A stretch of DNA of 64,000 bases from Candidatus Altimarinota bacterium. GTDB taxonomy: Bacteria > Patescibacteriota > Gracilibacteria > UBA4473. The stretch is taken from NCBI GenBank assembly GCA_021734785.1, contig JAIPIF010000001.1, positions 62,001 to 126,000 of the forward strand. The letters are read 5' to 3'. Positions 15,819-18,104 of the stretch are shown one piece after another. Made by a program: the position numbers and the translations under genes. The notes under the pieces are model-generated. The model made no database searches. It saw nothing but the letters and a program-made list of their open reading frames with translations, and was not told the origin of the DNA. How positions within the stretch are numbered: position 1 is the stretch's first letter; each line of letters starts with the position of its first letter.

Positions 15819-18104
15819 GTGAGTTCTCCCAAAAAACCGAATCCGTACGCGTGGTTTTCTGCCAAAAAGATCCCGACCGACCCCGGGTGCTACCTCTTTT
15901 TGGACAAGGAGGGGACCGTCCTATACGTGGGCAAAGCCAAGAATCTGCGCGCGCGAGTGCGCACCTACTTTCAAAAAAACAAAAAATCCCCCAAAACCGC
16001 ATCGCTGCTCAAGAAAGTTGCCGCCGTGGAAACCCGCATCGTTTCCTCCGAAGCCGAAGCACTCATCCTGGAAAACAATCTCATCAAAGACCTGCAGCCA
16101 CGGTACAATATCCTCCTCCGCGACGACAAAAATTTCCTCTACCTCCGGATCACCGACGAGCCCTTTCCGCGGATGGAGATCACGCGTCGGATTGTTCGCG
16201 ATGGGAGTTTTTACCTCGGTCCACGCACCAGTGCCAAAAAATTTCGCTCCACGATTGCGTTTTGCCAGAAAATTTTTCAGATCCGGACGTGTCGGCTGGA
16301 GATGGAGCCCCCACCCTGTCCCTCCCCCGAGGGGGGAGGGAAAAAGGGAGAGGGGGAATATCAAGTGCCAAGAGACATTTTGGAAAAAGCAAGAAATCTC
16401 CGAAAAAACCAGACACGCCTGGAAGAAATCATGTGGACAGTGCTCCGAAACCGAAATTTTTGTGGCCTGAAATTCCGCCGCCAGCATCCAGTGGGAAATT
16501 TTATTCTCGATTTTTACTGCCTGGAAAAGAAAATTGCTGTTGAGATCGATGGATCGCAGCACGAAGAAGCCGAAAATAAAAAACGAGATGAGCGGCGAAC
16601 TCGTTTTTTGAATGCACAGGGGATCCGAGTGTTGCGGTTTTCAAATGCGGACGTTTTTACAAATTTGGAGGGAGTTTTGCAGACTTTGTACGAAGAAATC
16701 TTTTCTCCCTCACCCCAGCCCTCTCCCGGGGGGAGCGAGGGCAGTGAGGCTGGGCCAACGATTTCCAAAAACCCCGAAAAACGAAAGATCCCCTGCTTGG
16801 ACTTTCACATCAAAAAATGCTCCGGGCCGTGTGATGGGAAGATTTCCCGCGAAGAATACCGGGCGGACGTGACGCGCATGAAACGATTTCTCCGGGGCGA
16901 CACCCGAGAGGTGCTCCGCTTTCTCCAGGAAAAAATGATGCGACTGGCGCAGGAGAAAAAATTTGAAGCCGCGGCCAAAATGCGTGACCTGATTGCCTCG
17001 GTCGAAAGCTCGACCGAGCGACAGCGAGTTCAGTTTACCGACACGACCTCGCGAGACTTTTTGCACTTTGTTCGCAAAAAGAATTCGGCCTTTTTTATTC
17101 GCCTGGCCTTTCGAGAGGGCAAGCTCTTGGACCAAAATGAAATCGAATTTCGCGCCGAAGCGTTTGAGTCAGATGAGGCCGTGATCGAGCAATTTCTCCT
17201 GCAGTTTTATGATCGGGTGGACGAGATGCCCGCGGAAATCTTTCTCCCTGCGATGCCCGAGAGCCAGGATTCGCTCGAATCGGTGTTGTCCACAAAACTC
17301 AATGTGCCGCTGAGAGGCGAAAAAAAGAAGGTTTTGCAACTGGCTCGCAAGAACGCAGAAACCTTTGCCGAGCAAAAAGAAGTCGAAGCACTCTCGCAGG
17401 CTGAAAATTTTGCCGATGCGCTTCCGACTCTTGCCGGTGCCCTCTCGCTCCCTGAGCCGCCGCGACGGATTGAATGCTTTGACATCTCGCATTTTGGCGG
17501 CACGGCCACGGTGGCGAGCCAGGTCGTTTTCCTCGACGGAGAGCCCAAGAAATCCCAGTACCGCCGGTTTCATCTGAAATCACTTCCCGCGGGGAAAATC
17601 GACGACTTCGCGGCGATGGAGGAAGTGCTCTCTCGCCGGTTTGCGCGGACGGAGGATCCGAAATTTGCCGAGACGTTGCCGGATTTGATCGTCCTCGACG
17701 GCGGAAAGGGGCAGCTCTCGTCGGTGCTGAAGATTTTTAAAACACTGTCGGTGCCGGGATTTGATCCCAAAAAGCAGATCTGTGCGCTGGCCAAGCGCGA
17801 AGAAGAGGTGTTTGTCCCCGGCAAAAAAGAGCCGGTGGAGCTTGCCAAAGACGCTGCTGCCTCCAAACTGCTCCAGCGTCTCCGCGACGAAGCGCACCGG
17901 TTTGCGATCAGTTTCAGCCGTTCTGTGCGTCAGAAATCGGCCAAAAAATCAGCACTGGACTCGATCCGTGGGATTGGCCCGGCGACCAAGAAAAAGCTGC
18001 TGCAGGAGTGTGGCTCGGTGGCGGGGATTCGGAAGGCGAGTGACAAGAAATTGAGCGGAATCTTGAATGCAAAACAATTGCAAAATCTTCGGAAGCAGTT
18101 GTGA
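15819..18104 (+). CDS. uvrC: UvrC excinuclease subunit interrupted in frame by a DUF559 nuclease cassette
   Basis: 761 residues against about 610 normally. The GIY-YIG nuclease domain (TDPGCYLFLDKEGTVLYVGK) occupies about residues 20-100. Residues ~163-317 are foreign to UvrC: a Pro/Gly-rich linker, a DUF559 endonuclease domain, and a second Pro/Gly/Ser linker. UvrC resumes at RKIPCLDFHIKKCSGPC. The UVR (UvrB-binding) helix is at about 367-391, the RNase H-like nuclease from ~547 (ECFDISHFGG, LIVLDGGKGQ), and the helix-hairpin-helix pair at the C-terminus (IRGIGPATKKKLL). Removing the insert gives a normal-length UvrC. GTG 15819 lies 7 bases after TAAACT. UvrC makes both incisions in nucleotide excision repair; whether the fused protein still does is unknown. 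Confidence 0.95.
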   Translation: MSSPKKPNPYAWFSAKKIPTDPGCYLFLDKEGTVLYVGKAKNLRARVRTYFQKNKKSPKTASLLKKVAAVETRIVSSEAEALILENNLIKDLQPRYNILLRDDKNFLYLRITDEPFPRMEITRRIVRDGSFYLGPRTSAKKFRSTIAFCQKIFQIRTCRLEMEPPPCPSPEGGGKKGEGEYQVPRDILEKARNLRKNQTRLEEIMWTVLRNRNFCGLKFRRQHPVGNFILDFYCLEKKIAVEIDGSQHEEAENKKRDERRTRFLNAQGIRVLRFSNADVFTNLEGVLQTLYEEIFSPSPQPSPGGSEGSEAGPTISKNPEKRKIPCLDFHIKKCSGPCDGKISREEYRADVTRMKRFLRGDTREVLRFLQEKMMRLAQEKKFEAAAKMRDLIASVESSTERQRVQFTDTTSRDFLHFVRKKNSAFFIRLAFREGKLLDQNEIEFRAEAFESDEAVIEQFLLQFYDRVDEMPAEIFLPAMPESQDSLESVLSTKLNVPLRGEKKKVLQLARKNAETFAEQKEVEALSQAENFADALPTLAGALSLPEPPRRIECFDISHFGGTATVASQVVFLDGEPKKSQYRRFHLKSLPAGKIDDFAAMEEVLSRRFARTEDPKFAETLPDLIVLDGGKGQLSSVLKIFKTLSVPGFDPKKQICALAKREEEVFVPGKKEPVELAKDAAASKLLQRLRDEAHRFAISFSRSVRQKSAKKSALDSIRGIGPATKKKLLQECGSVAGIRKASDKKLSGILNAKQLQNLRKQL
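16305..16770 (+). mobile_element. In-frame DUF559 endonuclease cassette flanked by GC-rich palindromes
   Basis: The left flank (about 16305-16360) is an imperfect hairpin of C-rich then G-rich runs (CCCTCCCCC / GGGGGGAGGG); the right flank (about 16704-16752) is similar (CCCTCTCCC / GGGGAG, GAGGG). Between them lies a PD-(D/E)XK nuclease of the Vsr-like DUF559 family with its conserved residues: TRLEEIMW, FRRQHPVGNFILDFYC, IAVEIDGSQHEE, RDERRTRFL and GIRVLRFSNADV. The frame is open throughout, so host translation continues across it. Intein splice residues are absent. Exact ends cannot be fixed by eye to better than about 20 bases. Confidence 0.85.

Follow-up and report, generated by a model that had tools for sequence, protein, structure and literature searches.

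The uvrC gene in the window, which is the whole 64 kb stretch of DNA analysed here, carries an in-frame insert that is probably one copy of a mobile element organized as palindrome, nuclease gene and palindrome; the exact ends of the element and a target-site duplication are without evidence. Sequence comparison establishes that the unit recurs, with paired palindromic ends, in nuclease-bearing and palindrome-only versions, and that it is retained in frame in exposed loops. Translation as an internal domain without splicing is supported because splicing signals are absent and the in-frame copies mostly lack a start of their own; it is inferred from the open frames and these missing starts.

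The uvrC gene is a single open frame with a GTG start and 761 codons, encoding UvrC plus the insert (Table 1). The N-terminal UvrC sequence ends at residue 161 and restarts at TISKNPEKRKIPCL, after position 16757. Between these points lie about 155 residues, comprising a complete DUF559 nuclease between two linkers rich in proline and glycine. In this one frame Pfam recognizes GIY-YIG (residues 23-97), DUF559 (188-294), the UvrC RNase H-like domains (412-519 and 541-697) and HhH (712-761). The test for the DUF559 family (PF04480) is met, as residues 188-294 align to 4-108/109 of the family with the active-site residues intact. A preliminary description, made from the letters alone, had placed an in-frame DUF559 cassette within uvrC, and the open frame, the Pfam domains and the UvrC halves on either side confirm it. 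No second uvrC was found in the window genome, a draft of 9 contigs that is 77% complete.

Table 1. Features of the uvrC locus, in window positions
Feature	Position	Strand	Basis and remarks
uvrC frame with in-frame cassette, 761 aa	15819..18104	+	Open reading frame and Pfam; sole uvrC found in the genome
UvrC N-terminal part, GIY-YIG, to ...RTCRLE	15819..16301	+	Pfam, family alignment
Left palindromic linker	16302..16355	+	Core hairpin 16319-16341 TCCCTCCCCCGAGGGGGGAGGGA; translated MEPPPCPSPEGGGKKGEG; z -2.5
DUF559 (EDxHD/Vsr-like) nuclease, residues 188-294	16380..16700	+	Conserved D231, E242, D244, H248, D257; E 8e-37
Right palindromic linker, decayed CCCTCACCCCAGCCCTCTCCCGGGGGGAGCGAGGGCAGTGAGG	16704..16757	+	Translated SPSPQPSPGGSEGSEAGP; z +0.3; matches right ends of sister elements
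Remaining UvrC, TISKNPEKRKIPCL... to HhH	16758..18101	+	Pfam, alignment; RNase H acidic residues and His of DEAHRF present
UvrC RNase H loop (VLSRRF...IVLDGG), empty in the window	17625..17705	+	Holds other domains in relatives

The insertion site in relatives is a short variable linker leading from the GIY-YIG domain to a Cys-rich segment, and uninserted UvrC proteins of the same family hold only 10-25 residues there. A genome of the same genus (G001) has an empty site, RTCRLE-FSKCGTVA-KNPEKR (RTCRLEFSKCGTVAKNPEKR), and among the relatives searched DUF559 occupies this UvrC site in the window genome (G000) only. The expectation that sister genomes would lack the insert was thus fulfilled, both by the empty site of G001 and by the short linkers of related UvrCs. 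A separate loop of UvrC, in the RNase H region (VLxRRF..PDLIVIDGG), holds three unrelated folds across genomes: DUF559 in G002, a nucleotidyltransferase-like domain in G001 and GNAT in several genomes of the class (L060, L065-L068, L070, L076, L077, L078, L033). Whether the old insertion in this loop of relatives' UvrC is the same element was considered, and rejected because it is a GNAT or nucleotidyltransferase-like domain.

The cassette is not confined to uvrC. The window genome contains a further cassette: its second and only other DUF559 lies in frame within an Elp3-like radical SAM protein, and the same site is filled in G001. In 60 relatives, about 46 good DUF559 matches were obtained, 10 of them in open frames of more than 300 residues, and Pfam-checked surveys of relatives and of the whole class place in-frame copies in about 20 host families. 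These hosts include UvrC (at the second site, in G002), ValRS, IleRS, LeuRS, RibD, MurC, RecG, MiaB, MnmA, Sua5, TsaB, CofE and two glycosyltransferases, with repeated cases in RibE (more than 10), RsmG (four), AroA (two genomes) and MurD (two different sites). Several of the host genes belong to genomes in which UGA codes for an amino acid. From other phyla, 80 loci were picked by nuclease similarity alone, and 22 of them are open for at least 60 codons on both sides of the nuclease, with HsdM, HsdR, HsdS, Eco57I/PglX-type methylases, CobT, urocanase and others as hosts. The one-in-three chance of an in-frame position was left out of the statistical evidence, because disrupted genes are lost and many loci had been fetched for their long frames; the figures free of that bias are 10 of about 46 and 22 of 80.

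Some observations on these hosts stand by themselves. Most of the in-frame hosts found outside the class are restriction-modification or related methylase genes (L102, L104, L106, L107, L110-L113, L115, L117, L118, L120, L121, L126, L134, L135, L145, L148, L174). The IleRS of G009 (L036, a frame of 1180 residues) holds a DUF559 cassette together with an in-frame histidine phosphatase domain at residues 653-793. The RibE loop that receives DUF559 holds other repeat-like coding sequences (e.g. ATEARNQKPETRNE) in G142 and G061 (L196, L201), which suggests that this loop is generally tolerant of insertions.

The palindromes belong to the unit. A palindrome, defined by a stem score of at least 8 within 110 nt, was found on the left of 68%, on the right of 64% and on both sides of 50% of the 155 copies with enough flanking sequence, compared with 3.8% per side in control windows. 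The distance between left and right palindrome arms is 0.093 within an element, compared with 0.199 from one element to another (0 of 5000 permutations); palindrome distance also tracks nuclease distance (Mantel r 0.38, 0 of 2000). This pairing shows that palindromes and nuclease travel as a single unit; the Mantel correlation could reflect joint inheritance of that unit. Two palindrome-only copies lie in frame in G002. The one in ValRS hardly differs from the right end of the cassette that this gene also carries, and the one in UvrC stands at the exact site of the full cassette of G000. Palindromes of the G+C-rich types can be read through in 4 to 6 of the 6 frames. The earlier statement that the cassette enters genes in frame holds for the in-frame state, and entry is better read as retention in frame, because the palindromes are readable in most frames, the sites are exposed loops and disruptive insertions would be lost.

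In the window, the left palindrome (16305-16362) folds better than 197 of 200 shuffles, and it is the only G+C-rich hairpin of such strength and kind across the 64 kb. The right palindrome (16700-16762) does not fold above chance, and its sequence matches the right ends of sister elements. Of the two palindromic linkers first described, the left one was borne out, and the right one is decayed and, taken alone, no stronger than chance. The window copy may be immobile for this reason. A search of the rest of the window genome with the exact pattern CCCTCWCCC..GGGWGAGGG gave no match, and dispersed copies of this exact palindrome are consequently not shown there.

Movement is most directly visible where one genome holds two related copies. 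In G203 the cassettes of RibE and RsmG are sisters (support 100/96) and align over 510 bp at 78%, with the homology stopping within the palindromes; the palindromes of this pair are nearly identical and the nuclease gene is about 25% diverged. An intergenic copy and the MurD copy of G106 are likewise sisters. Presence of a cassette in the RibE loop is patchy, changing 9 times on the host tree, which is no better than for shuffled data, and the nucleases in this loop are polyphyletic. These comparisons support an element that is putatively mobile, translated and non-splicing, with the two copies within one genome defining the unit. The original proposal of a mobile nuclease cassette, tolerated as a translated loop and resembling the Rickettsia palindromic elements with a nuclease of its own, is supported by the empty sister site, the Elp3 copy, the unrelated hosts, the paired palindromes and the two-copy genome.

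Most likely the nuclease is translated together with its host as one protein, because an SD sequence with ATG in the nuclease frame was found in only 3 of 56 in-frame copies, against 27 of 99 standalone copies, and no in-frame ATG lies near the domain start in 39/56 and 22/99, respectively (p 8e-9). Starts at GTG or TTG are not excludable; in the window a GTG preceded by AGAGGGGG exists. The nuclease is under purifying selection within unrelated hosts: dN/dS is 0.14 when the RibE copy of G203 is compared with the RsmG copy in that genome, and RibE orthologues give 0.06. These are the two least saturated pairs; dS exceeds 1 even there, and the remaining pairs are saturated. The residues D, E, D, H and D are conserved over 18 in-frame copies, with one exception, a D-to-G change in the MurC copy. 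An AlphaFold model built from the alignment has pLDDT of about 90 for the insert domain and the C-terminal half of UvrC, and below 50 for both linkers and part of the N-terminal half. The GIY-YIG domain was poorly modelled, so no claim is made on its contacts. Foldseek on the model retrieved the UvrC RNase H domain (2nrr, TM 0.86), the DUF559 protein 3hrl (TM 0.88) and the homing endonuclease I-Bth0305I (3r3p, TM 0.72). A profile search agrees (I-Bth0305I homology, E 3.5e-6), and the test for an EDxHD catalytic domain is met. In the model the insert folds on its own and is held by disordered tethers.

Standalone relatives extend the picture to well-known bacteria. The E. coli gene ycjD is a standalone DUF559 gene between sapF and fabI (L223, 3001-3600), followed by a palindrome of the same type. 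Matching E. coli genomes have this palindrome at a median of 15 places, with a median of 16 copies in 39 genomes that have ycjD and 4.5 in 20 that do not. The association is confounded by lineage and by the use of the ycjD-side palindrome as query. In E. coli lacking ycjD, an efflux cluster lies downstream of sapF in the two regions examined, and there is accordingly no clean empty site. In Neisseria gonorrhoeae, an NGO0050-like DUF559 gene (L224, 2363-2845; cf. 3hrl) adjoins palindromes of the CCCTCTCCC type.

That the nuclease drives the movement is an inference, drawn from its homing-endonuclease relatives, from the purifying selection in hosts, from the pairing of ends and nuclease and from the copy-number association of ycjD. 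The nuclease would recognize and cut or nick either an empty site or its cognate palindrome, the latter perhaps folded into a hairpin or cruciform; there are no cleavage data. Repair copying from another, filled element would then spread the cassette, for which there are no mobility data, and the palindromes would act as homology arms in this repair. An insertion would persist only if it left the frame and the fold of the host intact. Such copying, which is not shown, would with palindromes as homology explain palindromes that are more alike than the gene they enclose. A wider reading, for which we consider the chances about even, is that these are autonomous, non-splicing, translated mobile elements of many phyla, whose nuclease exists only as an internal host domain and whose palindromes are its own recognition and homology sequences, with homing between palindromes and palindrome-only derivatives mobilized in trans. 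If true, they would be the autonomous counterpart missing so far for coding palindromes of the RPE and REP type.

Alternatively, some other enzyme might move the palindromes and carry the nuclease along as cargo. They would then be REP-like sequences dispersed by other machinery, such as a RAYT-type transposase, replication slippage or recombination, and DUF559 would be a passenger or a domesticated repair enzyme. We judge this unlikely, while still the most serious rival: palindrome-only copies exist, translated intragenic REPs are known without a nuclease (PMC3733652), and in Caulobacter the DUF559 protein VsrA behaves as a mismatch-repair nuclease would (PMC12907096). A passenger does not sit well, however, with two ends that match each other and the nuclease subfamily (RAYT genes were not searched), with purifying selection on the nuclease inside unrelated hosts, or with the lineage-confounded excess of palindrome copies in E. 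coli genomes that have ycjD.

A stable domain fusion, in which UvrC keeps the nuclease for a new DNA-repair activity, retains only a slim chance. UvrC and DUF559 both act on DNA, the nuclease is under purifying selection, and many hosts outside the class (HsdM, HsdR, HsdS) modify DNA; yet among the relatives searched the window genome stands alone with DUF559 at this site, the inserts occupy variable loops and hang on disordered tethers, and the hosts extend to RibE, AroA, MurD, RsmG, CofE and urocanase. The new activity initially suggested for the fused UvrC remains unsupported, since the host enzymes are unrelated and the insert is modelled as a separate tethered domain. A missed intein or self-splicing intron is practically ruled out: homing-endonuclease relatives usually reside in such elements, but Pfam finds no Hint domain in the 761-residue frame, direct reading finds no His-Asn at the junctions (so that the intein test is not met), Rfam finds no group I or II intron or other RNA above chance and nothing near the gathering score, the frame is open throughout, the element ends are palindromes, and the insert lies in a loop away from any conserved active-site motif. 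The absence of splicing signals noted at the outset is thereby upheld by Pfam and Rfam. An assembly chimera at the joints, named beforehand as a possible refutation and suggested only by the draft state of the genome, is very unlikely, because the frame is open over both joints, dozens of independent assemblies carry the same architecture in other genes, and the Elp3 insertion is common to the window genome and the independent assembly G001.

The preferred reading, a mobile palindrome-nuclease-palindrome element, bears on several fields. Translated palindromic insertions have been known since 2000 without a known engine, and the cassettes pair such palindromes with a nuclease. The question of the engine is thereby open to experiment, and ycjD with its palindromes offers a way into it even in E. 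coli K-12. Time and again, bacterial core enzymes, including aminoacyl-tRNA synthetases, UvrC, MurD and RibE, accommodate an entire foreign enzyme in a loop. Such tolerance matters for domain gain, for annotation, where restriction-modification genes carry DUF559 "fusions", and for the persistence of selfish genes without splicing in small genomes. In the open-licence literature, no description of palindrome-bounded DUF559 cassettes or of their in-frame insertion was found, and a literature search with the translated linker peptides gave no match. The cassettes, found in dozens of unrelated housekeeping genes in many phyla, are apparently an undescribed class of translated mobile element.

Each part of the cassette has relatives among known systems. 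DUF559 (YcjD) was assigned to the PD-(D/E)XK/Vsr group (PMC1189080), a link between DUF559 and EDxHD homing endonucleases has been made in passing (PMC9403480), and for one member, VsrA of Caulobacter, a phenotype related to repair is known (PMC12907096). E. coli YcjD, N. gonorrhoeae NGO0050 (PDB 3hrl) and Caulobacter VsrA are of the same nuclease family as the cassette, and palindromes like those of the cassette are found next to ycjD and close to the NGO0050-like gene; unlike the in-frame cassette, these standalone genes are intergenic and have their own start codon. The EDxHD homing endonucleases, a family named in PMC3943268 and represented by I-Bth0305I (PDB 3r3p), share the fold and active-site region of the cassette nuclease, and they too have a nuclease gene in conserved genes with patchy distribution. 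The cassette differs from I-Bth0305I in having no self-splicing intron or intein and no extra DNA-binding part, and in being bounded by palindromes. Residence in a self-splicing intron or intein, or a free-standing state, does not apply to the window copy, while other members of the element family are free-standing.

REP/RAYT elements resemble the cassette in having a nuclease gene between palindromes and dispersed palindrome-only copies. Their enzyme is an HUH Tyr transposase, whereas the cassette encodes a PD-(D/E)XK/EDxHD nuclease and commonly occurs as an in-frame coding insertion. No HUH Tyr transposase was found by Pfam between the palindromes, where DUF559 is the sole domain, and the REP/RAYT test is not met. 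The closest parallels are the Rickettsia palindromic elements (RPE; Ogata et al. 2000), described in a review (PMC10969869) as translated palindromes in genes, and the intragenic REPs of many bacteria, often in repair genes and without a nuclease (Di Nocera et al. 2013, PMC3733652). Both resemble the cassette as palindromic DNA in frame in unrelated genes, translated without splicing, with hosts that include DNA-repair (uvrA/uvrB) and tRNA-related genes and with repeated insertion in one gene. The RPE test of in-frame palindromic DNA in unrelated genes is met here, translation being inferred. RPE and intragenic REPs encode a palindrome only, of 20-80 residues, whereas in the cassette two palindromes enclose a conserved nuclease of about 115 residues, and its family, unlike theirs, comprises nuclease-bearing elements together with palindrome-only derivatives.
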